Shown here: one piece after another, positions 47,842 to 64,000 of the stretch
Layout of the letters: every line of letters begins with the position of its first letter
Position numbering within the stretch: the stretch's first letter is position 1
NCBI RefSeq assembly: GCF_016907815.1
Contig: NZ_JAFBCQ010000001.1
Coordinates: forward strand, 2,046,001-2,110,000
Direction of reading: 5' to 3'
Length of the DNA: 64,000 bases
Origin: Microbacterium aurum
GTDB taxonomy: Bacteria; Actinomycetota; Actinomycetes; Actinomycetales; Microbacteriaceae
Program-made: the position numbers and the translations under genes
The notes under the pieces: generated by a model
The model's database searches: none
Seen by the model: the letters and a program-made list of their open reading frames with translations, nothing else
What the model was told of the DNA's origin: nothing

Positions 47842-47913
47842 TGGGGTATGGTGTAATTGGCAACACGGCTGATTCTGGTTCAGTTGTTCTTGGTTCGAGT
47901 CCAGGTACCCCAG
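47842..47913 (+). tRNA. tRNA-Gln (anticodon CTG)
   Basis: TGGGGTA pairs with TACCCCA. The anticodon is CTG at 47875-47877, the T-loop GGTTCGAGTCC is intact and the discriminator is G. CCA is not encoded (GCAA follows). The excisionase and integrase genes start less than 200 bp away. That makes the 3' half of this gene the likely attachment site. Confidence 0.95.
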
Positions 47914-47923
47914 CAACGAATCG

Positions 47924-48103: not shown

Positions 48104-48304
48104 ATGGAAGCTCATGCACGCATCGCGGTCGAGCCCGCGTTCCTGACCCAGGCCGAGGTCGCCGTTCTGCTGGGGGTGCCCGAGCGCACGCTCGAAGGCT
48201 GGCGGCTCACGAAGTCGGGACCGCCGTGGTTGAAGCTCGGTCGGCACGTGAAGTACGACAGTGAGGACGTGCTCGCGTGGGCGCGGGAGCAGCGTCATGG
48301 CTAG
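48104..48304 (+). CDS. Excisionase-like helix-turn-helix protein (66 aa)
   Basis: Small DNA-binding protein of the excisionase/HTH_17 family: FLTQAEVAVLLGVPERTLEGWR is the HTH and SGPPWLKLGRHVKYDSEDVLAW the wing. Its stop codon overlaps the integrase start by eight bases, a normal xis-int arrangement. ATG 48104 is chosen; the frame upstream is non-coding. Confidence 0.85.
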   Translation: MEAHARIAVEPAFLTQAEVAVLLGVPERTLEGWRLTKSGPPWLKLGRHVKYDSEDVLAWAREQRHG

Positions 48305-49502
48305 GCCGAAGATCGCCGCGGGCGAGGTCGGCCAGGTGCAGGTGACCCAGCTCGCGAGCGGCAAGTGGCGGGCACGCGCCCGGATGCGCGACGACTCCGG
48401 CGAGTTGGTGCAGCTCCGCGCCGAAGCCGCTACCGAGGATGCAGCCCGCGAGGAGCTGCTGTCGCGCGCGAAGACCCTGACGACGCACGCGAAGGCCATC
48501 GTCACCGCCGCATCGACCATCCAGGAGGCGGCGGAGGCGTGGCTGCCGACGGTGAAGGTGCGCGCCGAGAACGGCACGCTGTCGTGGTCGACGTATGAGA
48601 ACTACGAGACCACCGTCCGTCTCACGCTCGTCCCCGTCTGTGGCGGCGTCACGCTGGAGGCGCTCACGGTCGGCCGCTGCGATCGGATCATCCAGAACCT
48701 CCTTGCCGACCGGGGTGTGTCCGCAGCGCGGAAGGCCCGTTCGGTGCTCTCGCTCATCTGCGGGTTCGCCGTGCGCGACGACGCGATTCCGACGAACCCG
48801 GTGCGCGACGTCACGCGGCTGCCGACGCCGGATAAGAAGACCGCGATGCTCACTCCGCAGCAGATCGAGGCGATCCGCGACCTCATGACCCGGTGGCGGG
48901 AGACGGAGGGCATGGGACCGCGCCCGAACTGGCGGGCGCTCGTGGACGGCATGGACATCATGCTCGGCACCTCCGCTCGCGTGGGGGAGTGCATCGGCCT
49001 GCGCCGCTGCGACGTGGACATGACCACCGCCCCGCCGACGATCCTGATCGACGGCACCGTGATCCAGAACAAGGCGCAGGGCATTCAGCGGAAGAACGCC
49101 CCGAAGCGTACCCGCCAACGTCGTCGCGTCGCGCTCCCCGCTCTTGCGGCCGACGCAGTGCGGCGCCGGCTCGCACTCGCGGAGAAGGGGCTGGAGGCGT
49201 TGCTGTTCCCGACGAAGACCGGCAAGCCGATGAGCGTGTCGAACTACGAGCGTCTACTGCGCTCGTTCATCGACGACAACCGTGATGAGCTCGTGCGTCT
49301 CGGTGTTGACGTGGATGAGTACTCGACGCACATCTACCGGCGCACCACCGCGACTCTCGTGGAGCGCGCGGCGGGGCTCACGATCGCGTCACGGCTGCTC
49401 GGGCATGCGAACGAGATGGTCACACGCAACAGCTACGTCATCACGGCCGAGCAAGTTGATGTCGTCACCGCCGACATCCTCGACACGATCCTTGGGACGT
49501 GA
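48297..49502 (+). CDS. Tyrosine integrase
   Basis: Site-specific recombinase of 401 aa. The N-terminal arm-binding region (GQVQVTQLASGKWRARARMRDDSG) is followed by the core-binding domain (about residues 70-150). In the catalytic domain the first Arg is in GTSARVGECIGLRRCDVD (about 222), HxxR in STHIYRRTTAT (about 345) and the nucleophile Tyr in LLGHANEMVTRNSYV (about 382). Together with the adjacent excisionase it should insert the element at tRNA-Gln and excise it. Confidence 0.95.
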   Translation: MARPKIAAGEVGQVQVTQLASGKWRARARMRDDSGELVQLRAEAATEDAAREELLSRAKTLTTHAKAIVTAASTIQEAAEAWLPTVKVRAENGTLSWSTYENYETTVRLTLVPVCGGVTLEALTVGRCDRIIQNLLADRGVSAARKARSVLSLICGFAVRDDAIPTNPVRDVTRLPTPDKKTAMLTPQQIEAIRDLMTRWRETEGMGPRPNWRALVDGMDIMLGTSARVGECIGLRRCDVDMTTAPPTILIDGTVIQNKAQGIQRKNAPKRTRQRRRVALPALAADAVRRRLALAEKGLEALLFPTKTGKPMSVSNYERLLRSFIDDNRDELVRLGVDVDEYSTHIYRRTTATLVERAAGLTIASRLLGHANEMVTRNSYVITAEQVDVVTADILDTILGT

Positions 49503-50314: not shown

Positions 50315-52663
50315 GTGAAAGGCGGCGTGGTCCTGTTCCGCGGTACTGGCACGGCTGCGCGCCGGTACCTGGAGTCCGACAGATCCACCGCCGACGAGTA
50401 CTACCTGGAGGGCGGCACCGCGCTGCCGGGGTTCACCGTCACCGACGCCGCGGGCGAGGTCATCGAGGGGCGTACGCTCAACCCGGAGCAGTACGCCGCA
50501 TGGGTCGACTGGACGGACCCGATTAGCGGCACATCGATGGGAACCCCGCGCGGCGCGGGCGAGGGGATGCGGGGTTCGCCGCGGTTTGCGGAGATGGTGA
50601 TCAACGCCCCGAAGTCTCTCTCCATCGCCGCCGCCCTGCATCCGGAGGTTTCCGACGCGCTCGACGCCGCGCAACAGGATGCGGCGGCGGAGATCCGACG
50701 CTGGCTCGCCCAGCACTCGGTCACCCGGATCGGGCCTCGGCACGCGCGAGAGATTGTGCCGGTGCAGCAGTTGCAGACCGTCGCGGTCGCGCACAAGACC
50801 AGCCGTGCGGGTGACCCGCACCGGCACATCCACTTCCAGATCGGCACCCGCGTCTACGCCGCGGGGAAGTGGCGCGGTCTGGACACCGCGGCGCTGTTCA
50901 AGCAGCAGGGCGCGATTCGCGCCCTTGGCACCGCGATCATCGCCGCCCACCCGCAACTCGCCGCCGTACTCGACAAGCACGGTCTCACGCTCGACCCGGC
51001 GACGGGAGAGGTCGCAGAGCTGGAGCCGTTCAACGCGGCCCTGTCGAAGCGCGGTGCGCAGGTCGAACGCAATCTCGCCACCTTCGAGGCCAAATGGGAA
51101 GCTGCGCATCCCGGCGAGGAACCCGGGCCGGTCGTGCGGGCGCGGCTGAAAGCGAAGGCGTGGGAGCACGAACGCCCGGGGAAGAAGCCCACGGTGCTCG
51201 GCAGCGAGGCCGGTTGGCGCGCGGAGCTCGAAGACGCCGGCTACAGCCCGGATGCACCACGGGCGCACAGGCCTGCACCGGTCGCGCTCGACGAACTGCG
51301 CATCGAAGAAGTCGCATCTCGTGCACTTGACCGTGCGGCGGCGGGTGCATCGGCGTGGACGGCGCATACGCTGCGCGAGCACGTCACCCGCATCACCACC
51401 GAGCACGGCGTGCAAGCCACACCCGAGGAGCTACGAGAGTTCGTGCAACTGGCGACGCAGCTCGCAGCATCGGACTGCCTCTCCGTCCTCCCACCCGGCG
51501 CGCCGAAGCCGGAGCACGTCGCGCATCTGACATCGCTGCGCGTCGTCGCTGCCGAGACGGACCTGCGCGACCTGCTCACCGCACGCGCGGAGAAGTCCAA
51601 CCAGCGCATCCCGGGCGTACACAAGCTCGCGGTGCAGGCGGGCCTGGATGATGACCAGGAACGAGCGGCCGCAGTCGTCGCATCCGCCAACCCGCTCGTC
51701 GTGGTCGAAGGCGCCGCGGGGTCGGGTAAGACGACCATGCTCAAGACGGCCATCGAAGCCGCAGCAGCCGAGGGCCGTGGGACGCGGGTCGTCACGCCGA
51801 CGAAGAAGGCCGCCGACGTCGCGGCGCAGGAACTCGGCATCCCGACCGACTCCGTGGCCGCGCTCGTCTACGCACACGGGTTCCGGTGGAACAGCGACGG
51901 CGTGTGGACACGCCTGCGGCCCGGTGATGCCGATCCCGAAACCGGAAGCACCTACCGGGGGCCGGTGCATGAGGCGAGTCTCGCACTTGGTGAGCGGATC
52001 GTCGTCGACGAGGCAGGGATGCTCGACCAAGACTCCGCACTCGCACTGTTGCAGGTCGCGGACGAGGCCGGGGCGGCTGTCGCGCTCGTCGGAGACCGGG
52101 CGCAACTCCCCGCCGTCGGACGCGGAGGCGTTCTCGACATCGCCACCAAACTCACCCCAGCAGTCGTGGATATGACGAGCCTGCACCGCTTCACCGACCC
52201 CGCGTATGCGGCGTTCACGCTCGAGCTGCGGCATGCCCGCAGTCCCGCCGCGATCTTCGATCGGCTGAACGAGCGCGGACTGATCGCCCTGCACGACACC
52301 GATGAGGACCTGCGGTCGGCCATCGCCACGACGACGAGTACAGCGGATGCGATCACCGCCGCGACGAACGACGAGGCCCGGGCGCTCAACGAACGCATCC
52401 GTGCCGAGCGGGTCGACTGCGACGAGGTTGACGACGGGCGGACGGTGTTCGGCAGCGACGGGCTGCCCATCGGCGCCGGGGACGTGATCCAGACCCGCAG
52501 CAACGAGTCCACGCTCGGCGTTGCCAACCGGCAGACCTGGACCGTGCAGCACGTCGGCGACGACGGTGCGCTGAGCGTCGTCGAGACCGGCAACGGCCGT
52601 AAGTGGCAGCGCACCGTGACCTTGCCCGCGGAGTACGTGGCCGAGGATGCGCATCTGGCCTAG
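50315..52663 (+). pseudogene. MobF (TraA-like) relaxase-helicase, N-terminal 780 residues; interrupted
   Basis: N-terminal part of a conjugative relaxase-helicase. It has MobF tyrosines Y18 and Y29-Y30 (DEYYLEGG), and the HUH metal site HKTSRAGDPHRHIH (about residues 160-173). The RecD-like helicase has Walker A GAAGSGKTTML (about 467), VVDEAGMLDQD (about 563) and LVGDRAQLPAVGRGG. The frame ends abruptly at HLA-stop, just before the helicase motif present in the second relaxase. The last native bases are GCATCT at 52651-52656; the remaining codons come from the inserted element. The missing part lies at 61903-63006. The relaxase domain could still be functional, but the C-terminal helicase motifs are lost. 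GTG 50315 has GGAGG six bases before it. Confidence 0.9.
52651..52656. repeat. Left junction repeat of the inserted element (GCATCT)
   Basis: GCATCT here and at 61902-61907 is all that the two junctions share. Joining them gives CAT CTC GGC TAC in one frame. The rebuilt target is an imperfect dyad, GCCGAG-N9-CTCGGC around GATGCGCAT, as expected for a serine-integrase attB. Confidence 0.85.
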
Positions 52664-52680
52664 CCGAGGTTCTGTAAACG

Positions 52681-52709
52681 CACCTACCTCTCACACGAGT
52701 AGGAAGGTG
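52681..52709 (+). promoter_or_regulatory. Hairpin over the recombinase ribosome-binding site
   Basis: CACCTACCT (52681-52689) can pair with AGGAAGGTG (52701-52709) except for one central A-A mismatch. The second arm contains the AGGAAGG sequence nearest the start codon. On a read-through transcript this would hide the site. Confidence 0.45.
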
Positions 52710-52719
52710 GGGCCGGAAC

Positions 52720-54297
52720 ATGGGCCAGGAACAGCAGGTGCAGGCTACGGGATCAGCAGCGCCGGTGCGGGCGGTGATGTACGTCAGGATCAGCGATGAC
52801 CCCGAGGGCACCGAACGAGGCGTAGATCGGCAGGAGGCCGATTGCCGTGCATACGTCGCAGCCCACGGGTGGGAAGTCGCAGCGGTGTTTCGTGAGAATG
52901 ACACGTCGGCGTTCAAGCAGCGCACGATCACACTGCCGTCTGGTGAGCGGGTGCGCCGGGTGATCCGCCCGCAGTTCCGTACCATGCTGAAACACCTGAG
53001 CGACGGGCATGCGCAGGTGATGATCGCCTACGACTTGGATCGGGCGGTGCGCGACCCGCGCGACTTGGAAGACCTCATCGACGCGAAAGTCCTCGGCGGG
53101 TTCACCGTCCGCTCCGTCACTGGCTCACTCAGGTTGGACACGGACTCTGACGTGGCAATGGCGCGGGTGCTGGTGGCGATGGCGAACAAGTCCTCCGCTG
53201 ACACCGCGCGCCGTGTCGCGCGGGCGGCGAAGCAGCAGGCCGTCGAGGGTGCCTGGCACGGCGGCAGGGTGCCGTTCGGCTACCGCGCCGAGAACGGCGT
53301 CCTGATTGTCGATCCGGTGACCGGGCCTCTGGTGATCGAGGCGTACCAGCGGGTGCTGGCCGGTGACTCGCTGTATCGGATTCGGAAGGACTGGAATGAG
53401 CGCGGCATTCTCACCACTCATGAGTGTGCGTGGTCGGATCGGACGCTGAAACTGATGCTCCGTAACCCCTCGAACAAAGGGACACGCGAATACCGGCCCG
53501 TGATGCCCGATGGGAGCCGCGCGAAGACCTCGAAGATGCAGGTGCAAGCGGCGTGGCCTGCGCTCGTGGACGAGGACACCTGGCAGCAAGTCTCCGACGT
53601 GCTCGACGCGCGGAAGAAGGCTCGGAACTTCCACCAGCCCGGCACCGGCGCGGCGAAGCGCATGTACCCGTTCTCCGGGCTCATCCGCTGCTCGAAGTGC
53701 GGGACCGCGATGATTCACCGTGGCGTCGTGTACCAGTGCATCCAGCCCACGCGCGGTGGGTGCCACCGATCAATCCGCTCGACTGAAATCACGAAACTCG
53801 TGGAGGAGGCGGTGCTCGCGACGTTCGAGCAGATCACCCTCCACCCCACAAAACGCAGCAAGTCTGACGGTGACCTTGCGGCGCGGGTCGGGCTCGCAGC
53901 GACGCTCGACGCGGACCGGGAGCGACTGGCACGGCTCGATGATGACTACTACGACGGTCTGATCGACAAGGCCATGTGGGTGCGGCAACGCGCGAGGATC
54001 GCGGAGCGGATCGAGGCCATCCGCCGCGAGTACGCCGCCACGACGCCCGAGCATGCTGGGCCGAGCATCGACGTGACCACCGTCGCCGCCGAGTGGGAGG
54101 GCCGTACTCCGATGTGGCAGTACCAAGCAGCATGCCTCATCCTGCAAGCCGTCCTCGTTCACGCTCTCCCGGAGGGCATGAACGGTGCGACCCCGGCCCG
54201 TCGCCGCAACGAAACCGTCGAAGCCTTCCATGAGCGCCGTGCCGCGTACCGCGCCGAAATCCTCTCGCACCGGGTCGAGTTCATCTGGCGCGCATAG
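52720..54297 (+). CDS. Large serine recombinase (525 aa)
   Basis: Site-specific recombinase that probably inserted this element. The resolvase domain has the catalytic Ser in AVMYVRISDD (Ser25) and FRTMLKHLSDGHAQVMIAYDLDRAVRDPRDLEDLID. The recombinase domain has RVPFGYRAENGVLIVDPVTGPLVIEAYQRVLAG and NPSNKGTREY. A zinc ribbon (IRCSKCGTAMIHRG ... YQC ... GGC, about residues 323-350) and a coiled-coil segment (about 385-440) complete the usual layout. It lies 64 bp from the left junction, the normal place for a serine integrase gene. Confidence 0.95.
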   Translation: MGQEQQVQATGSAAPVRAVMYVRISDDPEGTERGVDRQEADCRAYVAAHGWEVAAVFRENDTSAFKQRTITLPSGERVRRVIRPQFRTMLKHLSDGHAQVMIAYDLDRAVRDPRDLEDLIDAKVLGGFTVRSVTGSLRLDTDSDVAMARVLVAMANKSSADTARRVARAAKQQAVEGAWHGGRVPFGYRAENGVLIVDPVTGPLVIEAYQRVLAGDSLYRIRKDWNERGILTTHECAWSDRTLKLMLRNPSNKGTREYRPVMPDGSRAKTSKMQVQAAWPALVDEDTWQQVSDVLDARKKARNFHQPGTGAAKRMYPFSGLIRCSKCGTAMIHRGVVYQCIQPTRGGCHRSIRSTEITKLVEEAVLATFEQITLHPTKRSKSDGDLAARVGLAATLDADRERLARLDDDYYDGLIDKAMWVRQRARIAERIEAIRREYAATTPEHAGPSIDVTTVAAEWEGRTPMWQYQAACLILQAVLVHALPEGMNGATPARRRNETVEAFHERRAAYRAEILSHRVEFIWRA

Positions 54298-54342
54298 CTC
54301 AGTTGGTGTGATCGGTCCCGCGCCCCTGACTGCCAAAGCATG

Positions 54343-54585
54343 TCAGGGTGCGGGGCTGTCGCGCTTCTCGCCCCGAGGCGCGTTCATGGGCCGAGGGGCG
54401 GTGCAGAGGCCGCGCAGTTCGGCCAGCACAGCAGGATCCTCCACCACGGTGGTGAAGCCCTGCGCACTACGTGAGGCGGCGGCGAGTCGTGCGCCAAGGG
54501 TGGCGTCATCCGATGAAGCAGAGGTGGCGGGATTGGCGGTGTGGGTGCCCATACCGTTAGGTGCGGAACCCCACCCCCAGTTCAT
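54343..54585 (-). CDS. Small protein (80 aa) coupled to the next gene, unknown function
   Basis: Not recognised. It is soluble, Ala/Ser-rich at the N-terminus (ATSASSDDATLGARLAAASRSAQ), with a possible helix PAVLAELRGLC, and a proline-rich tail. The ATG overlaps the preceding gene's stop codon (ATGA on the minus strand), the main reason to accept it as real. Confidence 0.5.
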   Translation of the reverse strand: MNWGWGSAPNGMGTHTANPATSASSDDATLGARLAAASRSAQGFTTVVEDPAVLAELRGLCTAPRPMNAPRGEKRDSPAP

Positions 54586-55445
54586 GGTGCGGTGTGTTTG
54601 TCGGGGTTGGCGGCGCGGATCGCATCCATCAGCGCCTCGTCGCTGCGCAGAGCGTCCAGCGGTTCGCCGTTCAGTAACCGCAGGAACACACCGTCACCGA
54701 CCGGAGTGCCCGGGTGCTTCGGGGCGGGATGCCCCAGCACGATCCGCAACAGCGCAGACCACGACCGAGGCGGCAGTCCGAGCAGCATCGGCATCGCGCG
54801 GTCACGGCGCAGCACCTCGACCGCTCGGGCTCGCGATGATAGGTCGGCGAGCCGGTAGGCCACATGCTCCATGCACTCGGCGACCAGCGCCGCATCCCAC
54901 CCCGTAGAGGCGAACAGTGCGACAGTGACAGACAGCAGAGCGGCCACCCTTGCCTCATGTTCGCTGTCTTCTGCGTCACCGTCGTCGTGGTGTGTGAACG
55001 CGGGGTGATAGTCAGCCAGGCGCTCTCGTTCGGCGAACCGTACGGCATCATGAAATCCAACGATCCGAGAGGTATGGCGCACCTTGCTGGCCGAGGTCAG
55101 CAACCCGGCGGCACGAGTCTCAGCGTTACAGGTGATCTGCACAGCACGAGTGACCACCGCCCACGGGTTGCCCGCGTTCCGCGTCGAAGGGGCGAGCATC
55201 ACCTCGAACGCGGCGGACGCTACTTCCCAGGCATCCAGACCGTGCTTACTGGCAAGTGGCCGGTACTTGATCGCGGTGTAGCGCATGAGTTCTGCCGCTT
55301 CACGATCACCCCGCCACGCACCAGGTCCAGCGTCGTATAGCCGGGTGAGCAGGGCGCGTAGACCTTCCGGGCTCTCGAACCCGCCGCTGGCCGAACCAGC
55401 CGGACCTGTAGCGCCGTCTGCGCGGGGTATAAGATGCTCGTCCAC
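54582..55445 (-). CDS. Unknown 287-aa protein of the mobile element
   Basis: Not recognised. Mostly helical: LRALLTRLYDAGPGAWRGDREAAELM, then YRPLASKHGLDAWEVASAAFEVML, which vaguely resembles sigma-70 region 2, and a central acidic patch (HHDDGDAEDSEHEARVAALL). No signal peptide or membrane helix. Starts at GTG 55445 with GGGAGG seven bases before it, inside a hairpin (55453-55468). A regulatory or replication role would be a guess. Confidence 0.7.
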   Translation of the reverse strand: MDEHLIPRADGATGPAGSASGGFESPEGLRALLTRLYDAGPGAWRGDREAAELMRYTAIKYRPLASKHGLDAWEVASAAFEVMLAPSTRNAGNPWAVVTRAVQITCNAETRAAGLLTSASKVRHTSRIVGFHDAVRFAERERLADYHPAFTHHDDGDAEDSEHEARVAALLSVTVALFASTGWDAALVAECMEHVAYRLADLSSRARAVEVLRRDRAMPMLLGLPPRSWSALLRIVLGHPAPKHPGTPVGDGVFLRLLNGEPLDALRSDEALMDAIRAANPDKHTAP

Positions 55446-55447
55446 GG

Positions 55448-55477
55448 TGACGCCTCCCAGAAGGGAGGTGCGCCACC
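55448..55477 (-). promoter_or_regulatory. Hairpin over the ribosome-binding site of the 287-aa gene
   Basis: On the minus strand CCTCCC-TTCT-GGGAGG (55463-55468 with 55453-55458) is a perfect stem with GGTGG upstream and CACCG downstream that can extend pairing. GGGAGG is the ribosome-binding site of the GTG at 55445. The string CGCACCTCCCT recurs before both relaxase genes. Confidence 0.6.
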
Positions 55478-55588
55478 GGAACCCAAACCGAGGCGCGCGT
55501 CAGCGCGCTCGCACGCATCGTCAGGGCTGTCGTTCTACTTCGAGGCCAGATTCGTAAGCGTCACACCGCGTTCACGAACTAGGACCTG

Positions 55589-56230
55589 TCACTTGACGCG
55601 GATGTCGCTCACCGGCTCGTGGGTTGATGTGTCCCATCGCCCGTTGATGGAGCTGAGGAGCAGCCAGGGTTCGATGACGAGGTTGATGGCGATGTGCGCA
55701 GCGATCACGGGGAGCACGTTGCGGTCTGCGAGAAGGTAGGTCGCGCCGAGCGCCGCGCCGAGAGCGGTAGTGGCCGTGACGACAGGGACAATGATCCGCG
55801 CGTCACGAGAGAACAGCACCCAGAGGGAATGCGCTACGCCGAAGGCGACCGCCGCCGCGAGGACTTGCAGGACACCGGCTGCGCCGAGCCCGTCGAGCCA
55901 GTCCATGAGGAACTTGCGGAACAGCAGTTCTTCCAGTGTCCCTGTGACCAGTGCCAGTGGGATGGCGAGGAGCTTGAGGCCCGTGAACGAGGTGGCATGC
56001 TCCTTGACGAACGGCACCGCCCAGAACGTGTACGCGACGTACGCGACGACGATGACCGCCGCGAGCACCCAGGCCCACGGGATCGAAGATGCCGCCTGGT
56101 TCACGCCGAGCAGGTCGGTGACGAACCATGCCGGGTCGCGGATCAACCACAGCACCAAGGGGATCGCCATGCCCGAGGTCGTGCCCACAATGAGCAGCCC
56201 CGTGACCTGGCGAGCTGAGAGATTGCGCAC
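55589..56230 (-). CDS. CPBP-family intramembrane protease-like protein
   Basis: A 213-residue membrane protein with about six helices and all three CPBP (Abi/CAAX-like) motifs: EELLFRKF, FGVAHSLW and HIAIN. The family includes intramembrane glutamic-type proteases and bacteriocin-immunity or membrane-maturation factors. I chose GTG 56230, preceded by AAAGG six bases away, over upstream ATGs. It diverges from a TetR gene that is likely to control it. Confidence 0.85.
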   Translation of the reverse strand: MRNLSARQVTGLLIVGTTSGMAIPLVLWLIRDPAWFVTDLLGVNQAASSIPWAWVLAAVIVVAYVAYTFWAVPFVKEHATSFTGLKLLAIPLALVTGTLEELLFRKFLMDWLDGLGAAGVLQVLAAAVAFGVAHSLWVLFSRDARIIVPVVTATTALGAALGATYLLADRNVLPVIAAHIAINLVIEPWLLLSSINGRWDTSTHEPVSDIRVK

Positions 56231-56310
56231 GAGAGTCCTTTCGAGTGGCATCAAGCTGTTATCGCACAGTCGTACCATAATAGGTGAGGGAAGATGACCG
56301 AGGAGGATCG

Positions 56311-56880
56311 ATGCCGAAGGTCGTGGATCACGATGCACGCCGGATGGCGATCACGCGCGCGGTCGCGCGGCTGATCGAACGCGACGGCATCCACACCGTG
56401 TCCGTGCGTACGGTCGCAGTCGAAGCGGGCGTGCAGCCGTCGACGCTGCGGCATTACTTCCCCAGCAGCGACCAAATGCTTGCAGCGACCATCCAGATGG
56501 TTCGCGACGACCAAGCAGAGCGACTTGCAGCCCTTGCTCCCGCAGGCAACCCCCACGACGATATTCGTCAGGCGTGGCTCCAAGCGCTCCCACTGGACGC
56601 GGCGCGCCGAACAGAAGCACACGTCTGGCTCGCCGTTACCGCCACCGCACGCGACACCGAACTCCGGGCAATCCTCCGGGGGATTGAGGATGGACTACAG
56701 CACTTGTGTCGGGTCACCGCGCAGACCTTCGCGCCCCGCGCCGACGTCGCACGCGAAGCCACCCTGCTGCGAGCCTTCACCGACGGCCTCACGCTCAACG
56801 CGATCGCCGACCCCGAATCATTCACGCCCGAGCACATCACCGTCGTCCTCGACACCTATCTCGCCCGACTCGCAGCCTGA
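56311..56880 (+). CDS. TetR-family regulator
   Basis: A 189-residue regulator. MAITRAVARLIERDGIHTVSVRTVAVEAGVQPSTLRHYFPSSDQML (about residues 12-57) is the DNA-binding domain. ATG 56311 has a strong AGGAGG five bases upstream. The 80-bp divergent gap to the CPBP gene is AT-richer than its surroundings (TACCATAATAGG), and probably holds both promoters. Confidence 0.88.
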   Translation: MPKVVDHDARRMAITRAVARLIERDGIHTVSVRTVAVEAGVQPSTLRHYFPSSDQMLAATIQMVRDDQAERLAALAPAGNPHDDIRQAWLQALPLDAARRTEAHVWLAVTATARDTELRAILRGIEDGLQHLCRVTAQTFAPRADVAREATLLRAFTDGLTLNAIADPESFTPEHITVVLDTYLARLAA

Positions 56881-56921
56881 CCTGCCCCCACCAACAGACT
56901 CCGCTACCCCCAATAGCAGTT

Positions 56922-56990
56922 ATGCACGTATGCCACCGTTGGTGGGACGTGCGCACCTCCCTCATGAGACGACTCATGAGGGAGGCCAGG
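56922..56990 (+). promoter_or_regulatory. Conserved leader/possible oriT block before the second relaxase gene
   Basis: Same block as at 50246-50314. It has CCACC-GTT-GGTGG within outer CACGT/ACGTG, then a perfect 13-bp inverted repeat, CCTCCCTCATGAG (56956-56968) and CTCATGAGGGAGG (56973-56985), around ACGA. GGAGG in the second arm is five bases before the relaxase ATG. Confidence 0.6.
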
Positions 56991-59900
56991 ATGAAGGGCG
57001 GCGTGATCCTGTTCCGCGGCAACGGTGCCGCCGCGCGCCGCTATGTCGAGGCCGACCGCTCCCGCGCCGACGAGTACTACCTCGGCGCAGACAACGCCGT
57101 AGCCGAGTACGTCGTCCTCGATGCGTACGGCGAGGTTAGCGCCGCCCGTTCCCTCTCGGCTGAGGAGTACGAGGGGTGGGTGGACTGGACAGACCCGATC
57201 ACAGGCGAGTCGATGGGCACCCCGCGCAAGCCTGGCGAGGGCACGAAGGGATCGCCGTTGTTCGCGGAGATGACGATCAACGCACCCAAGAGCCTGTCGG
57301 CCGCCGCCGCCCTCCACCCCAGAGTCTCCGTCGCACTCGACCAGGCTCAGCAGGACGCTCTTGCCGAGATTCGCCGCTGGCTCGGCCAACACTCCGTGAC
57401 GAGGGTCGGGCCGCGTGACGCGCGGGAGGTCGTGCCTATTGAGCGTATGCAGGTCGTCGGCATCTCGCATAAGACCTCGCGGGCGGGTGATCCGCACCGG
57501 CATATCCACATGCAGATCGGCACGAGGGTGTGGGCGGCTGGGAAGTGGCGTGCGCTGGACACCGCGGCGTTGTTCAAGCAGCAGGGAGCGATCCGCGCGC
57601 TCGGCACCGCTGTGATCGCCGCGCATCCTGAGTTGACCGAGACGCTGAACCGCCACGGCCTGACCCTCGATCCGGTGTCCGGTGAGGTGGCCGAGTTGGA
57701 GCCGTTCAACGCGGTCATGTCGAAGCGGTCGGCGCAGATCAGACGCAACCTCGACCGCCTCGAAGCCGAATGGGAAGCCGCGCACCCCGGTCAGACGCCC
57801 GGCCCGGTGCTCACGGCACAGTTCCAGGGTGTCGCGTGGACACACCAGCGTCCGGGCAAGAAGCCCGCGGACTTGAAGAACGAGCAGTGGTGGCGGCAGG
57901 AACTCGCAGACGCCGGATACGACCCCGCCCGCGTCCAGCGGCGCGAAACGCGCGCCTCGGTGTCGCTGGATGACCTCGCCGTGCAGGAGGTCGCGAGCCG
58001 TGCGCTGGATCGCTGCGCAGCGGCGGCATCGACGTGGACGCCGCACACCGTGGCCGAGCACGTCACCCGCATCACCACCGAACACGGCGTGCAGGCCACG
58101 CCCGCCGAGTTGCGTGAGTTCATCCGCCTGGCAGCCAGCCTCGCAACCAACGATTGCTTCTCCGTCCTGCCACCAGGGGCGGCGACGCCGGAGCATGTGG
58201 CGCATCTGACCAGCCTGAGTGTCGTGGCCGCTGAGACCGCGCTGCGCGACCAGCTCGCTGCGAGCACACCCAAGCGGGAGCCGGAGCACCCCGATGTGCC
58301 TCGTGCCGCGCACGCGGCAGGACTCGATGCGGGGCAGGCGGTCGCGGCCGCCGCGGTCGCCTCAACCGACCCGCTGGTGATCGTGGAAGGCGCAGCGGGC
58401 AGCGGGAAGACCACCATGCTCCGCACGGCTATCCAGGTCGCAGCTGAGCACGGCAGAGCCTCGCGGGTGGTCGCGCCGACGCTGCGAGCGGCGCAGGTTG
58501 CGCACCAGGAACTCGGTGTACCCGCAACCTCGGTCGCCGCACTCGTCTACGCGCACGGGTGGCGGTGGAACGACGACGGCGTATGGACACGCCTGAACCC
58601 CGGCGACACCGACCCCGCAACCAGCAGCGCCTACACCGGCCCGCCGCGCGATGCCGCGCTCTCGTCTGGTGAGCGGGTGATCGTGGACGAAGCAGGCATG
58701 CTCGACCAGGACACCGCCCACGCCCTCCTGACCGTCACCGCCGAGGCCGGGGCGACGATCGCACTCGTCGGTGACCGCGCGCAGCTCCCCGCCGTCGGTC
58801 GTGGCGGAGTGCTGGACATGGCCGCGCAGATCAGGGGCCGCACCTATGACATGACCGAACTCCACAGGTTCGCTGATACCAAGTACGCCGCGCTGACGTT
58901 GGTGATGCGGGACCGGGAGAACCCCGGCGCGGTGTTCGACCGGCTCGCCGCGATGAACCTCGTCACCCTGCACGCCGACGACGATGCGGCCCGTGAGTAC
59001 GTCACGGCGCACGCTCGCAAGGGTGAGGTGACCACGGTCGCCACCAACGACGAAGCCGCCGCGCTGAACGAGCGCATCCGTGCTGGCCGGGTCGAGCGCG
59101 GTGAGGTCGATGACATGGCGACGGCGACCGGCAGCGACGGGCTATCCATCGGGGCCGGTGACCTCATCCAGACGAGGAAGAACAGCAGCGACCTGGGTGT
59201 GGCTAACCGGCAGCAATGGATCGTGCAACGAGTCACCGACGACGGCACCGTCTATGTCCGCGAAGTTGGCAACGGGCGCAAGCATCTGAACACGGTCGCC
59301 CTACCGAGCGAGTATGTGGGTGAGCATGCGCACCTGTCTTATGCCGCGACCGCCTACGGCGTCCAAGGCGCGACCGTGAACGCCTCGCATACAGTGCTCA
59401 GCGAGGCGACCAGCGCGGCAGGCGTCTACGTCGGCATGACGAGAGGCCGCGAGCAGAACCGGCTCCACGTCGTCGCGGGGAACCTCGCGGAGGCGCGGGC
59501 ACAGTTCATCGACGCGATGCAACGCGACCCCGCCGACCGCGGTCTCGACCACGCCACCGCCCAAGCCATTGACGCCGTGCGCGGCCTCGTGGCGGATGGC
59601 CCTGTTCGGCTCGTCACCGATGAACTCGCCCGACTTGACGAGGAAGCCGAGCGTGCCCACCGGCAGGCGCAACGGTGGGAGGAAGCCGCCGCACGCCTCG
59701 ACGCCCAGCGCGCCGCACACCGGGCCGAGGACGACGAAGACGCCACCACACTCCGCAGAGCAGAGGACGAGACGGCGCGGGTGCGCGCCGAGGTCACCGT
59801 GCCACTCACCGTGCGGGCCGAGACGGATGGCGCGGCCTACCTCGCAGCCATCAAAACTGAGGCCGCTGCGAGTGCGCGGCTGGCGACCACCGGGAGGTTC

Positions 59901-60437
59901 GGCAGGCGCAAGGCCCGCGCCGAGCACCAGACCGCGACGGAGCAGGCCCGGAACGTCCGTTCGCAGGTGCGCGAAGTCTGGGGCGGTGAACTGCCGGGCA
60001 CCCCCGAATCCCTACCCGCCTGGGCGGTCCAGGCAGCGGCACTACGAGCCGAGGCAGACCCCCGTGTCAGCGACGCCGAACGCGCGGTCGAGGTAGTACA
60101 TGCCGAGCAGAAGGAGACCAGGCAGCGACACCAGCGCGAGCGCATGACGTTGCTGGTAAGCGAGTTCGGGCCCGAGCACGCCCGCCGTGCTGAGTTCGGC
60201 ATGGGCGCGGTCAACCCGCACCGCAATGCCGACGACGCTCGCAGACGAGCCACGCTGATCCGTGCTGAGGCCGATGAACTCCGCAGCCTTCCGGTGAACG
60301 ACGCCGCCCAGCGGATCGAGGTCAAGCGCGCCGAGAAGGAGCACACTCGGCAGCGAGAAGGGCAACTCAGCAAGCCGTTTGACCACGAGCCCCGCCGCAG
60401 CAAGCCAAAGCGCGACGGGCCAGCACGTGGCTTGTGA
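56991..60437 (+). CDS. MobF (TraA-like) conjugative relaxase-helicase, complete (1,148 aa)
   Basis: Nicks oriT and unwinds the strand for transfer. The relaxase domain has Y18, Y29 and Y30 (DEYYLGAD) and the HUH site GISHKTSRAGDPHRHIHMQ (about residues 157-175). The RecD-like helicase has GAAGSGKTTML (about 467), IVDEAGMLDQD, LVGDRAQLPAVGRGG, SYAATAYGVQGATVN and VYVGMTRGREQNRLH. The last 330 residues are helical and charged. It is similar along its whole length to the interrupted relaxase. At the insertion-site equivalent (59330-59335) it has GCACCT instead of GCATCT, a silent change. ATG 56991 is chosen for its GGAGG. Confidence 0.95.
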   Translation: MKGGVILFRGNGAAARRYVEADRSRADEYYLGADNAVAEYVVLDAYGEVSAARSLSAEEYEGWVDWTDPITGESMGTPRKPGEGTKGSPLFAEMTINAPKSLSAAAALHPRVSVALDQAQQDALAEIRRWLGQHSVTRVGPRDAREVVPIERMQVVGISHKTSRAGDPHRHIHMQIGTRVWAAGKWRALDTAALFKQQGAIRALGTAVIAAHPELTETLNRHGLTLDPVSGEVAELEPFNAVMSKRSAQIRRNLDRLEAEWEAAHPGQTPGPVLTAQFQGVAWTHQRPGKKPADLKNEQWWRQELADAGYDPARVQRRETRASVSLDDLAVQEVASRALDRCAAAASTWTPHTVAEHVTRITTEHGVQATPAELREFIRLAASLATNDCFSVLPPGAATPEHVAHLTSLSVVAAETALRDQLAASTPKREPEHPDVPRAAHAAGLDAGQAVAAAAVASTDPLVIVEGAAGSGKTTMLRTAIQVAAEHGRASRVVAPTLRAAQVAHQELGVPATSVAALVYAHGWRWNDDGVWTRLNPGDTDPATSSAYTGPPRDAALSSGERVIVDEAGMLDQDTAHALLTVTAEAGATIALVGDRAQLPAVGRGGVLDMAAQIRGRTYDMTELHRFADTKYAALTLVMRDRENPGAVFDRLAAMNLVTLHADDDAAREYVTAHARKGEVTTVATNDEAAALNERIRAGRVERGEVDDMATATGSDGLSIGAGDLIQTRKNSSDLGVANRQQWIVQRVTDDGTVYVREVGNGRKHLNTVALPSEYVGEHAHLSYAATAYGVQGATVNASHTVLSEATSAAGVYVGMTRGREQNRLHVVAGNLAEARAQFIDAMQRDPADRGLDHATAQAIDAVRGLVADGPVRLVTDELARLDEEAERAHRQAQRWEEAAARLDAQRAAHRAEDDEDATTLRRAEDETARVRAEVTVPLTVRAETDGAAYLAAIKTEAAASARLATTGRFGRRKARAEHQTATEQARNVRSQVREVWGGELPGTPESLPAWAVQAAALRAEADPRVSDAERAVEVVHAEQKETRQRHQRERMTLLVSEFGPEHARRAEFGMGAVNPHRNADDARRRATLIRAEADELRSLPVNDAAQRIEVKRAEKEHTRQREGQLSKPFDHEPRRSKPKRDGPARGL

Positions 60438-60643
60438 CGGCTGCGCGGAGCCTCTTCGACGTTGGCGTACCTCGTCAGCGGGCACCATGTCCAACAAGTG
60501 CCTGGAACCTATCGGCTGACATACCCGCATAGAGGTAGTCAACGACCAGGTGCGCGAGCGCCCAGGTCTACGAGCCGTAGTCCTACGGCGCTCGGGAGGA
60601 CAGCGCTGATTCTATGCTCGATCGAGCTGGGAGCTGTGGCAGG

Positions 60644-61273
60644 TCAGGTCGTTGCTGCGACGAGGACGGGCTGGCGGAGTAGGGTGCGCAGCTTCTCGGG
60701 CGTGACTTTGCGGAAGTCGCTGAAGTAGACCTCGTGGTGCTTGCCGTCCACGCGTAGGCCATTCTCGGGGATGAACTCGTCGTGCATGCGTTCCAGCACG
60801 GGGGCTTCATCATCGAAGGAGCCGCGGTGGAGGGTCTGGACGCAACGCCCCTCCGAGAGCGTTTCGAGGCGAACCTCGTCCAGGCGAGCGGGCCTGTTCT
60901 TGGTTCCGGCCTGCTCGACCGCGCTCTGGAACGAATCCCGGTCGATCCAGTCGGGAACCATGAGCATCATCGTCCAGTCCCATTGGGACTTGTCGCGTGC
61001 AACGGTGAACGTGTCCATGTCTTCGGCCCACCACAGCCCCTCCAGCGGTGGAACCACGTAGTCGCGCTCACGTTCTCGCTTGCTGATGAACTTGAGCTTG
61101 TAGGCGACCGGATACAGCGCCGAAAGAGCCTCCGTGTAGGCCGGGGCGGTGTTGGGGTCACCATGCCCGTCGACCATCAGGTACTGCATGTCGGGAACAT
61201 TCACGATGCGGAACTGGCCGCGCGGGGCTTGATAGCTATCGAGAGACTTCTTGAAGTCGATCTTGTCAGTCAT
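60644..61273 (-). CDS. GyrI-like small-molecule-binding domain protein
   Basis: A 209-residue protein of the stand-alone GyrI-like family (FRIVNVPDMQYLMVDGHGDPNTAPAYTEALSALYPVAYKLKF, LEGLWWAEDMD, KHHEVYFSDFRKVTPEKLRTLLRQPV). Members bind hydrophobic or drug-like molecules and some hydrolyse or sequester them. It overlaps the PadR gene by eight bases, so a ligand-responsive pair is likely. Confidence 0.85.
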   Translation of the reverse strand: MTDKIDFKKSLDSYQAPRGQFRIVNVPDMQYLMVDGHGDPNTAPAYTEALSALYPVAYKLKFISKRERERDYVVPPLEGLWWAEDMDTFTVARDKSQWDWTMMLMVPDWIDRDSFQSAVEQAGTKNRPARLDEVRLETLSEGRCVQTLHRGSFDDEAPVLERMHDEFIPENGLRVDGKHHEVYFSDFRKVTPEKLRTLLRQPVLVAATT

Positions 61274-61790
61274 GGGATGCCTGGACTCGGGACGCGAGCC
61301 ACGACCTTTCTGCCTCCAAGAGGCTCAGTGAGTAGGAGAACACCTCTCGCGCAGCGAGCGGGAGCGGGGTCTGGGATTGTTCGGCTTCTCTGACCGCGGT
61401 GATGCGGGCTTCGATCTGCGGGAGCCTGGCGCGCAGCGCATCGGCGTACTCGCGCTCAGTGAGAAGCGGCAGGTTGGCGACGCCCACCAGGAACGGATGC
61501 GGAATCGGGTCGGCCTCAATGAGTTGGGCGATCACGTCTTGCCGGGCGACGCGCCTGCCCTCGTCCGTCGCGTGGTAGATGCGCCGCGACTTCGGCCCTG
61601 GCACGGGCTGCGCGCCTTGGATGAGTCCGCGCTTTTCCAGTTTGGTGAGCAGGTAGTAGATCGAGGAGAACCCCACCTCCGTCCACTGGCGGATACCTCG
61701 CTGCTCGATCACCTGTTCGAGGTCGTAGCCGTGGGCTGGTCGCTCGATGACGAGTCCAAGGATCGTGAGCTCTGCCGGGGTGCACGCCAT
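61266..61790 (-). CDS. PadR-family transcriptional regulator
   Basis: A 174-residue PadR regulator: LTILGLVIERPAHGYDLEQVIEQRG (HTH), VGFSSIYYLLTKLEKRGLIQ (recognition helix and wing), and a C-terminal dimerisation helix (ALRARLPQIEARITAVREAE). The start codon lies at the edge of a 34-bp perfect palindrome, so it almost certainly represses its own operon with the GyrI-like gene. Confidence 0.92.
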   Translation of the reverse strand: MACTPAELTILGLVIERPAHGYDLEQVIEQRGIRQWTEVGFSSIYYLLTKLEKRGLIQGAQPVPGPKSRRIYHATDEGRRVARQDVIAQLIEADPIPHPFLVGVANLPLLTEREYADALRARLPQIEARITAVREAEQSQTPLPLAAREVFSYSLSLLEAERSWLASRVQASHD

Positions 61791-61821
61791 GTAGATATCC
61801 TAGCACTAGGATATCTACATG
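61788..61821. promoter_or_regulatory. 34-bp perfect palindrome, PadR operator
   Basis: Two 16-bp arms, CATGTAGATATCCTAG and its exact inverse, around a CA centre. It overlaps the PadR start codon. ATGTA...TACAT ends are typical of PadR sites. Confidence 0.8.
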
Positions 61822-61901
61822 ACTCGGCCCCGTACCGGTGGGCGAGCTGCGGTAGATTGGTGTTGCGCGCACGCGCGCGACCACAGGTGAGTGTGTTTGG
61901 G

Positions 61902-61907
61902 GCATCT
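61902..61907. repeat. Right junction repeat of the inserted element (GCATCT)
   Basis: Partner of 52651-52656. Left of it is element sequence (GTGTGTTTGGG); right of it the relaxase reading frame resumes at CTC GGC TAC GCG. Confidence 0.85.
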
Positions 61908-63006
61908 CGGCTACGCGGTCACCGCGTACGGCGTCCAGGGCGCGACCGTGAACGCTGCACACACGATGCTCTCCGACGCTATCGATGCGGCAGGCGTCTA
62001 CGTCGGCATGACCCGCGGGCGCGACACGAACAGGCTGCACATCGTCGCCAGCGATCTCGCAGACGCGAAGCAGCAGTTCGTCGATGCGCTCGCCCGAGAC
62101 CGCGCAGACCGCGGCTTGGAAGACGCCACCGAACGCGCCCGTGAGGCCGTCACCGACCTGATCGCGGACGGACCCATGTCCATCGTGAGTGCGGAGCGCG
62201 ACCGTATTGTCGAGCGGATCGCGAAGGCGGACGCGGAGCGAGAGCAGTGGGTGTCGGCAGCCGCCAAATTGCACGACCAGTCCCAGCGACACAAAGCCGA
62301 ATATGAGCCGCAGCGTGAGCTGGCGGCAGCCGCCGACGCGAAGGCTGCTGCCGTGCTCGCGGACGTTGTGGAATCGCTGACACAGGAGGCAGTCGCGGAT
62401 GGCGCCAAGTTCCTGGCTGCGCAGCAGAACGCGATCGCGGCACGCCGGGCCAAGGAGAGCGCGTCTCGGTTCCGCAAGCGTCCTGCCACCCGCACCGCGA
62501 ATAACGCCGACGCCCGGATTGTGGAGACAGAGCGGGCCGTGCGCGGCCGGTGGCAGAGCGTCCCCCGCAGCGAGAGCAATCTGCCCTCGTGGTCCGAGTC
62601 AGTCGCCCAGCACGAAGCCAGCCACGTGCCCGCGGTCGTCGAAGCACGCGCGGAAGCCACGCAGGCGCGCCAGATCGTCAGCGAGATCACTGCGAGGCAG
62701 TCGCGGGAGCACATGGCGCTGTACGAGCGTGTTCTCGGGAACCGGCGCCCGAGCACGGTTGCCGCTCGGGTGAAAGCTCTGCGCGAGCAGGCGGCGCAGG
62801 ATCGCCGCTACCTCGCCCAGATTGATGCGCTTCCGCCAGATGAAGCGGTCAAGCTCGTTCACGAGTGCGCAGCGCAAATCGAGGCCGAGCACCTCGCGGC
62901 CGAGGAAGCCCGTAGAGCGGCGAAAGCGCGCACGAAGCGGGTCGAAGCTCCAAACCATGAGCGTAACCGAGGGCGCTCCCTATACCGTGACGGACCGTCG
63001 TTGTAG
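61903..63006 (+). pseudogene. C-terminal fragment of the interrupted MobF relaxase
   Basis: Continues the first relaxase from HLGYAVTAYGVQGATVN, through VYVGMTRGRDTNRLHIVAS, to the charged helical C-terminus ending RGRSLYRDGPSL. The part matches residues from about 780 onward of the complete relaxase at 56991-60437. A GTG at 61891 could start translation of MCLGHLGY, but a helicase fragment without its ATPase half is not expected to work. It is preserved without stop codons, so the insertion is probably recent or still reversible. Confidence 0.88.
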
Positions 63007-63124: not shown

Positions 63125-63310
63125 GTGAGTGAGCCCTGGCTGTCTGCCGACGACATCGCCGCTCACCTGGGCGTCACCAAGGAGACGGTCTACGTCTGGA
63201 TCGCCGACAAGGGGATGCCAGCACACAAAGTGGGACGTCTCTGGAAGTTCCAGGTCAGCGAAGTCGATGAATGGGTGCGTTCCGGCGGAGCCTCATCAGA
63301 GGCCAGCTAA
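63125..63310 (+). CDS. Small helix-turn-helix protein (61 aa), excisionase/HTH_17 type
   Basis: WLSADDIAAHLGVTKETVYVWI is the HTH, followed by GMPAHKVGRLWKFQVSEVDEWVRSGG, the standard wing. It resembles excisionases but is far from the integrase. In other genomes such proteins often precede restriction or defence operons, in my recollection. GTG 63125 overlaps a 12-codon frame (MTPIELVKPVPS, 63090-63128) that could be a leader. Confidence 0.8.
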   Translation: MSEPWLSADDIAAHLGVTKETVYVWIADKGMPAHKVGRLWKFQVSEVDEWVRSGGASSEAS

Positions 63311-63393
63311 CGAATGTCGGAGGTCTGTCATAGTCTGAAAAACTTTCGCGCGTGAGACCGAGCAGCGGAGCAGATGAGGGGAGGAAAGCACGC

Positions 63394-63987
63394 ATGAGCA
63401 GCTTCAGGATTGGGCCGGTGAGCGTCGAGGTGCTGGATGGGCAGCACGCGATCGCGGTCGTCCCGCCGAGCCAGTGGCACGGCGATAGGCAGGAGCGCCC
63501 CGCACGCGCCGTGCTCGCCAATCTCAAGGCCGACGATGGTCTGCGCGCACAAGTCTCGCTGGTCCGCTGGGATGACAGCGACGAGATCTCGCTCGGCTTC
63601 GCCGAGCTGCTCGCTGGCCCGTCGGACTATGAGCGGTTGGAGGACGCCGGGGCGATCTCGCCGAAGCTCGTGGGCGACAAGCTGGTCGCGCGCATTCGCG
63701 CGTTGCGCTATGGGAAGACCGGGCGAGCAACCGGCGCGGCGGTCGAGTGGGCGCAGATCAGCGAGTGGGCGGGCGGCGACGCGCAGGCGCTGCTTGCCGA
63801 CCTCGGCGCGACGCGCACGGGCGCGTATGGCGTGCTGCTGCCGAGCGCGACACGCTTCAAGACCGAGCCGGCCATCGAGGTGCCTATCGCGGACCCGACG
63901 GCGTTGTTCGCGGCCTACGCGCTCACGCGCGTCGTGCCGATCATGACCGGCTATGGCAAGGAATCGGTGGAAGGCCCGAACGCATGA
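63394..63987 (+). CDS. Unrecognised 197-aa protein heading the right-edge operon
   Basis: Soluble mixed alpha/beta protein. FRIGPVSVEVLDGQHAIAVVPPSQW begins with predicted strands, then AVLANLKADDGLRAQVSLVRWDDSDEIS, a basic middle (KLVGDKLVARIRALRYGKTGR) and YALTRVVPIMTGYGKESVEGPNA at the end. I do not recognise the family. ATG 63394 has GGGGAGGAAAG upstream. Its stop codon overlaps the start of the next gene (ATGA), so it is the first or second gene of an operon leaving the window. Confidence 0.75.
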   Translation: MSSFRIGPVSVEVLDGQHAIAVVPPSQWHGDRQERPARAVLANLKADDGLRAQVSLVRWDDSDEISLGFAELLAGPSDYERLEDAGAISPKLVGDKLVARIRALRYGKTGRATGAAVEWAQISEWAGGDAQALLADLGATRTGAYGVLLPSATRFKTEPAIEVPIADPTALFAAYALTRVVPIMTGYGKESVEGPNA

Positions 63988-64000
63988 GTGGCGTCGACGT
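63984..64000 (+). CDS. Start of a further gene (cut by window edge)
   Basis: ATG overlapping the previous stop codon (ATGA) opens MSGVD and runs off the window. The overlap is the only evidence; nothing can be said about its function. Confidence 0.5.

Follow-up and report, generated by a model that had tools for sequence, protein, structure and literature searches.

Integrative mobilizable elements (IMEs) with serine recombinases are known from Firmicutes, where their insertion sites are conserved ICE genes, traG among them, and none of the canonical IMEs known in 2017 encoded a MobF relaxase (PMC5704250; this and the other papers cited here are represented by excerpts). The excerpts of PMC7168690, PMC7563491, PMC12904643, PMC12942858, PMC10669575 and PMC3218068 concern other targets or elements, and the word 'relaxase' is absent from the text of PMC10083194, an extensive catalogue of such recombinases, in whose tables members of the present family may occur. 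Among the matches listed (titles, the beginnings of abstracts and open-licence PMC text), none described serine-recombinase elements in MobF relaxase genes. We read the locus analyzed here as belonging to an actinobacterial IME family that carries a MobF relaxase and has MobF relaxase genes as its target, for which we found no published description.

The window, that is, the whole stretch of 64,000 nucleotides of Microbacterium aurum that was analyzed, contains a MobF relaxase gene in two parts, and the features of the locus are listed in Table 1. With a probability of roughly 0.87, we consider the intervening segment to be an IME whose serine recombinase joins a palindromic attP to a conserved attB in MobF relaxase genes, and which brings its own MobF relaxase.

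Table 1. Coordinates of the interrupted relaxase gene, the inserted element and the surrounding island in the window
Feature	Position	Strand	Remark
3΄ end of tRNA-Gln (47842-47914), 35-bp direct repeat	47880..47914	+	host-island end
Host-island tyrosine integrase (Phage_integrase)	48261..49502	+	
First 782 codons of the interrupted host MobF relaxase gene, for the TrwC domain and the helicase part up to the break	50315..52660	+	
Inserted integrative mobilizable element, TA to TA	52661..61911	+	9,251 bp
Left attachment site: TA core and conserved left arm GCCGAGGTTCTGTAAACGCACCTACC	52661..52707	+	
Large serine recombinase, 525 aa (Resolvase, Recombinase, zinc ribbon)	52720..54297	+	
Conserved 287-aa core protein	54582..55445	-	in 25/29 copies; low-confidence, nearly all-helical model
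Cargo: CPBP-type (Rce1-like) membrane protein	55589..56338	-	
Cargo: TetR-family regulator	56284..56880	+	
Inverted repeat CTCATGAG-ACGA-CTCATGAG with flanking pairs, candidate oriT or regulatory hairpin	56957..56984	+	
Element's own intact MobF relaxase, 1,148 aa	56991..60437	+	homologous site at 59340 = CTGTCT-TA
Cargo: GyrI-like small-molecule binding protein	60644..61273	-	
Cargo: PadR-family regulator	61266..61790	-	
Right attachment site: conserved right arm CACAGGTGAGTGTGTTTGGGGCATCTCGGC and TA core	61867..61913	+	
Last 364 codons of the interrupted host relaxase gene	61912..63006	+	

A preliminary description, made from the sequence alone, had proposed an insertion of 9,251 bp with junctions sharing only GCATCT (52651-52656 and 61902-61907). 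The length was correct and the junctions were not: alignment of 29 left ends and 12 right ends placed the boundaries at TA (52661-52662 and 61912-61913), and a GCATCT core was thus ruled out by the ends of the other copies. The GCATCT on the right lies within the right arm of the element itself (GGGGCAYCTCGGC), and its match on the left is therefore due to chance. The left flanks changed abruptly at TAGCCGAGGTTCTGTAAACGCACCTACC in 29 copies (with 0 to 3 differences to it), one of which (L041) had TG in place of TA, and right ends, visible in only 12 copies including that of the window, read CACAGGTGAGTGYGTTTRGGGCACCTCGGC-TA with minor variants. Compared as inverted repeats, the two arms of the window copy agree at 17 of 25 positions, and those of four further copies at 18-21 of 25. 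The dyad that had been ascribed to the rebuilt target is accordingly real but belongs to the ends of the element, and attL and attR share TA within imperfect palindromic arms, as in large serine recombinases with a 2-bp core. The recombinase does lie near the left junction, at a distance of 59 bp (from its ATG at 52720 to TA) instead of the 64 bp given earlier.

Uninterrupted relatives of the target define the same boundaries. In locus L053, sequences 93% and 95% identical to the left and right flanks of the window are separated by exactly TA, as are those in L054 (83% and 78%), and loci L055 and L056 (73-75%) were consistent with a TA gap once the alignments were extended to their ends. On the uninterrupted plasmid pR912A (L049), both flanks of another copy (L017) match over 300/300 bp and lie two bases, TA, apart. 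The crossover is therefore a 2-bp TA inside a tyrosine codon. The empty site reads HLA-Y in L053 and L054, which corrects the HLG-Y reconstructed previously.

The interruption of the relaxase gene given in the preliminary description was confirmed. The frame from 50315 halts at HLA-stop, where the TAG of the left arm (52661-52663) follows ...AEDAHLA and ends the host relaxase fragment; the missing part resumes about 9.25 kb away at the tyrosine codon 61912-61914 (YAVTAYGVQG) and runs to 63006; and the joined frame has 1,146 codons (782 + 364), the best-scoring homologue of the N-terminal part (P0001) being 1,146 aa long. The objection that homologues might naturally end near residue 780 was answered by the 52 N-terminal homologues listed at an identity of at least 81% (P0001-P0052), 50 of which are 1,139-1,170 aa long. 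The other two are P0002 (826 aa), which breaks at the motif with the same HLA followed by other letters and whose tail had matches in 7 of 198 genomes, and P0019 (723 aa, no source given, 100% identity over 88%), which ends before the motif. The best homologues are largely from Microbacterium. Both relaxases in the window contain PF08751 (TrwC domain) and PF13604 (SF1 helicase domain), as MobF relaxases do.

We then compared 29 copies with a readable left end, the window included, whose recombinases are 80-91% identical. These comprise 25 loci from one set of 28, the window, a plasmid (L037), L038 and L041; the dropped loci were L026 and L032, with left ends out of reach, and L034, which was only 25% identical, and L035, L039, L040, L042, L043, L044, L052 and L072 were left out as repeats of places already seen, some of them being recognized as such by the length of the contig. 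The 29 copies are not fully independent: L017 and L022 have a common target, L013 and L016-L019 a common element, and L011/L018, L007/L025 and L015/L033 are pairs that each come from one record set.

In 24 of the 29 copies (14 forward and 10 reverse, on 23 distinct flanks), a MobF relaxase gene is cut at one and the same tyrosine codon, within (G/A)-Y-A-x-T-x4-Q-G, so that the translated left flank is either the part ending in L-(G/A) before TA or, on the other strand, Y-A-x-T-x4-Q-G from TA on. Together with the uninterrupted relatives, this bears out the earlier proposals that the insertion is site-specific and that relaxase genes of other mobile elements are its targets. Fifteen of the 24 cases, counting the window, are also backed by a longer relaxase fragment aligned to the break and nine by the translated flank alone, and the motif was readable on both sides in 11. 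Orientations were assigned by script from a pattern in the translated flanks, and one 'forward' label (L010, not a relaxase) was overruled by eye. The five remaining copies lie outside relaxase genes (L010, with a flank of only 94 bp, L013, L024, L037 on plasmid pNAPH, and L041), and hence the specificity is not absolute; integration of relatives of the recombinase only at unrelated sites, which had been named as an argument against the proposal, was not what we observed. Among the 14 interrupted N-terminal parts compared, that of the window shares 27-31% identity with the others, which show 49-81% identity among themselves, except for L017 and L022 (100%). The feature common to the target genes at the site is the helicase motif, which we take to be motif V. 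The target is a MobF relaxase gene in these 24 copies, and not traG, SNF2 or PPI.

Serine recombinases with palindromic dinucleotides lose orientation control. TA is its own reverse complement, and a serine recombinase with a TA core should therefore not distinguish direction, so that both orientations are predicted. An 8,882-bp element that is 99.98-100% identical in L016, L017, L018 and L019 occupies four different relaxase genes, two of them in forward and two in reverse orientation, and the same 8,882-bp element with an additional 2.56 kb is found at a non-relaxase site in L013. The records of these five copies are labelled Brevibacterium, Kocuria, Propioniciclava, Homoserinimonas and Actinomycetota MAG. 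The single target of L017 and L022 has, moreover, been entered by two elements that are 77% alike over a shared 86%. G follows TA in the left arm of all 24 relaxase copies, and its complement-strand counterpart in the right arms available is also G. With TA-G thus read outward from both arms, a TAG stop arises in the target in either orientation, and this immediate TAG was found in the target frame of the 14 forward copies and of the five reverse copies with a known right end.

The intact relaxase frame at 56991 had been described as a 1,148-residue paralogue of the interrupted gene. It is a homologue of that length (66% identical to the interrupted relaxase in the N-terminal part; NF041492, 123.1 bits against a cut-off of 100), but it is the element's own relaxase rather than a mere paralogue, and its presence within the element indicates a mobilizable element, a point that had been missed, as had the occurrence of both orientations and the bounded nature of the host island. 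Own relaxases were found in 20 of the 29 copies, including that of the window, as expected of a canonical IME; they are 71-79% identical to that of the window over most of their length, and 84-85% identical over partial stretches in L024 and L031. The nine copies with no own relaxase include seven with at most 8 kb to the right of the left end, and several of the nine are cut by contig ends; in L021 and L028, about 11 kb of sequence follows the left end, and no own relaxase was found in it.

The own relaxases differ from the targets at the position homologous to the insertion site. All 19 that were scored (12 distinct sequences) read HLSY, encoded as CTGTC(C/T/G)-TA, and the base at –3 is T in 19/19 own sites versus G in 19/19 scored left half-sites of targets. 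This suggests that a changed base beside the core might render the own relaxase immune to the element's recombinase. At the same site, the 120 best homologues of the target comprised 104 with Ala, seven with Ser and nine unmatched by the search pattern. Five of the seven Ser homologues resemble the target more closely than they do the own relaxase, and Ser is thus not confined to relaxases of the own type; it could in part be a clade marker.

The leader (about 75 bp) upstream of the own relaxase is kept in the 15 elements aligned and also precedes the target relaxase of the window. The window hairpins read CTCATGAG-ACGA-CTCATGAG and CTCATGAG-ACGA-CTCGTGAG; L037 differs in one pair, on both sides, and L014 and L020 retain the ACGA loop with other letters in the stem. 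The hairpins were compared by eye and left unscored because two rows shift the register. We regard this leader as a candidate oriT; it also reads as protein, and other roles are therefore possible.

The remaining gene content agrees with an IME. The element has its own recombinase, a large serine recombinase with a Resolvase catalytic domain, a Recombinase domain and a zinc ribbon, and no T4SS family was found among the seven proteins scanned (small ORFs lay outside the scan). No FtsK-like transfer protein or replication initiator, as in an actinomycete AICE, was present among these proteins, and the serine recombinase and the insertion in a coding sequence set the element apart from IME_oriT. 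Of 8,000 candidates scored, 542 were related to the 287-aa protein at E ≤ 0.001, and NCBI names several of these exopolyphosphatase. The protein had no match in PADLOC or NCBIfam and none among PDB sequences up to E 10, its Pfam matches were weak (the best being DUF374, E 0.0041, in 10 of 50 members), and its AlphaFold model is nearly all helix with a mean pLDDT of 68.8 and a pTM of 0.45. A directionality factor and a sigma-like protein were both considered as possible roles for it. An Erm-type methyltransferase gene lies near the right end in L016 (17903-18712; NF000499, 240.9 bits against a cut-off of 212), the same element being present in L017-L019, and Erm-like genes in L013, L022 and L027 were called from an identical or near-identical start only. 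No Erm-type gene was found among the proteins scanned in the window copy.

The interrupted relaxase gene itself belongs to a bounded island of about 33 kb at tRNA-Gln, the other end of which is marked by a second copy of the 35-bp repeat at 80829-80863 (extended coordinates, outside the window), the two copies starting 32,949 bp apart. The island contains type IIG restriction, an SNF2-like helicase, a GajA/GajB-like pair, AbiEi/AbiEii and Fic, a gene set that looks like defence. No T4SS gene was found among the island ORFs scanned (small ORFs lay outside the scan), and both the island and the element thus seem to need a helper. Likewise, no T4SS appeared among the 25 families listed of the 82 matched by 65 flank ORFs from 12 target loci.

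The recombinase is rare but widespread. At E ≤ 1e-150 it was detected in 7 of 398 genomes of the family of the window and in 1 of 396 genomes of a phylum sample, namely the window's own, and a threshold of 1e-90 again gave 7 of 398 family genomes; none was found in the viral contigs scanned. Relatives of the element occur in records of many actinobacterial genera; some of these are MAG contigs, one labelled Spirochaetia, and host labels may therefore be wrong.

These observations fit a mechanism in which attP would be a roughly 50-bp imperfect palindrome with TA at its centre, and attB the conserved stretch that codes for the helicase motif (L)(G/A)-Y-A-x-T-x4-Q-G in the MobF relaxase genes carried by other mobile elements. 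An active recombinase would exchange strands at the TA within the tyrosine codon, the palindromic TA would permit insertion either way, and the TAG at the junction would interrupt the target frame in either case, with a probable loss of target function. After excision, the own MobF relaxase, probably with an oriT directly upstream, would mobilize the element through a T4SS borrowed from a co-resident conjugative element. Such movement with the aid of a helper has indirect support in the near-identical copies present in different records.

We weighed three other explanations. It is unlikely that the segment is a decayed relic, once mobile and now fixed, with two relaxases that are ordinary paralogues acquired by other routes. 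The single copy in the genome and the absence of T4SS genes among the host-island ORFs scanned would suit such a relic, as would the sibling L031, whose recombinase and relaxase are each split over two frames and which indicates that some copies look decayed; however, the recombinase, the core protein and the own relaxase of the window are intact frames, both of its att arms are intact, and sibling copies in different records are 99.98-100% identical. A transposon of the Tn4451 type with low specificity, found in relaxase genes only because mobile elements carry it around, would account for the 5 of 29 copies at other sites, but such an element would scatter within and outside the relaxase genes, and the clustering of 24 of 29 copies at an identical codon, in genes down to 27% identical and in both orientations, makes this very improbable. 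Homologous recombination between two relaxase genes, or an assembly artefact, might be suspected from the 66% identity of the two window relaxases in the N-terminal part; we give this hardly any credence, given that the same arms recur at 29 loci (not all independent) and that the flanks lie two bases apart in uninterrupted relatives.

Within our preferred reading of the segment as a mobile IME, a further possibility, against which we judge the odds to lie somewhat, is that it is a specialised hyperparasite that silences a rival relaxase by the stop codon, spares its own, and either substitutes its own transfer or allows the island to be co-transferred. Its recombinase would read the conserved MobF helicase motif, which rivals could not readily mutate away precisely because it is conserved in MobF relaxases, and an Ala/Gly-to-Ser change, the Ser codon replacing G at –3 of the core, would protect the own relaxase. 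The transfer of the host element would then be silenced and that of the element's own system put in its place; alternatively, the own relaxase might co-transfer the island if the two oriTs resemble each other, which they may do in the window.

If the IME reading is true, this mobile-element family is addressed to a gene by which other mobile elements transfer and aims at a conserved sequence from which escape is difficult, and some versions bring an Erm-type gene near the right end. Its serine recombinase, with a palindromic core, would be one that naturally inserts in both directions, and the idea that one recoded residue confers self-immunity could be put to the test in it. Some seemingly truncated actinobacterial relaxase genes may be interrupted rather than degenerate.

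As far as the excerpts of the cited papers describe them, the traG, SNF2 and PPI IMEs of Firmicutes resemble the present family in having a serine recombinase, their own relaxase, no T4SS and a short att core, and in disrupting a conserved gene of another mobile element (PMC5704250, PMC7168690), whereas the present family hits a relaxase gene at the helicase motif, is found in Actinomycetota, carries a MobF relaxase and inserts in both orientations. IME_oriT elements likewise have their own relaxase and integrate at the transfer-initiation site of ICEs (PMC7563843, PMC5704250), but their integrase is of the tyrosine type and their target the oriT nic site, instead of a serine recombinase and a relaxase coding sequence. 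Serine recombinases and insertion in conserved genes are also shared by IME_Rho_tet, which differs in its insertions in maff2 ORFs (116 of 256 cases) and its occurrence in Firmicutes (PMC12904643), and by the Tn1806-like ICEs in snf2, which have been shown nested in another ICE but whose targets are hsdM, snf2 and methylase genes of Firmicutes hosts (PMC12942858). Tn4451 with TndX, also an IME whose serine recombinase has a 2-bp crossover, differs in its low target specificity and its occurrence in Clostridia (PMC5704250). Among actinomycetes, IME2287 of Rhodococcus equi is a putative IME with a serine recombinase, but it has a replication operon and a 4-bp direct repeat and lacks a relaxase or other conjugation gene, and its excerpt describes no insertion in a relaxase gene (PMC10669575). 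The erm(B) element of Tn6002 likewise interrupts no other kind of gene than a mobile element's relaxase gene, one of the Tn916 family; there the insertion is at the 3΄ end, only lengthens the protein and leaves transfer unimpaired (PMC7168690), whereas the present element cuts the relaxase gene in the middle.

In the host relaxase gene, which the inserted element interrupts after the residues HLA, each att arm is in frame with the C-terminal half of the target, and the reading opens with a GTG directly 3' of a stop codon. The lead-in to this half that is encoded by the arms reads V-[RC]-L-x-x-L-G-Y-A. Because both arms are open in frame from a GTG following a stop, the C-terminal helicase piece of the target might be translated separately.

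A relaxase of 826 aa from an unclassified Microbacterium (P0002, a listed homologue of the N-terminal part) shares 92% identity with the host relaxase in the window. Its break point falls at the identical HLA, where unrelated residues follow and no stop occurs, so this site may have undergone an event of another kind in P0002. In the two further MobF genes (L001 and L003), the motif is kept together with its TA (CTGGGG-TA and CTCGCC-TA) and is uninterrupted at that TA; these are possible free sites for insertion.

Locations of the features discussed (extended coordinates continue the window numbering beyond position 64000)
Feature	Location	Remark
Att arms with in-frame reading into the C-terminal half of the host relaxase	window 61891-61914	left arm 52661-52700, minus strand
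Two further MobF genes	L001 (genome 2008835), L003 (genome 1077823)	same genome as the window
Second large serine recombinase, distant	G000:C1:2043160-2044380 (L036)	~1.6 kb before window start
Host-island part 3' of the host relaxase	window 63125-64000, on to ~80863 in extended coordinates (L045)	
Erm-family gene in sibling element	L016:17903-18712	genes in L022 and L027 begin similarly

The distant second recombinase shows 36% identity and has an open frame of 742 aa. Downstream of the host relaxase, the island encodes a type IIG restriction enzyme, an SNF2-like helicase, a GajA/GajB-like pair, AbiEi/AbiEii and a Fic gene; judged by gene content, the host island at tRNA-Gln is a defence island.

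Rhodococcus pLW1 (L050) and a Microbacterium paraoxydans plasmid (L051) carry the TetR, relaxase and RelE part of the plasmid-borne pNAPH element, and the recombinase was not found in the stretch examined of either plasmid. Both look as though a later rearrangement had cut the pNAPH element. The Erm-family gene of the sibling elements is possibly an unnamed erm, because its score passes the broad NCBIfam cut-off yet falls below those of the named types among the matches listed.
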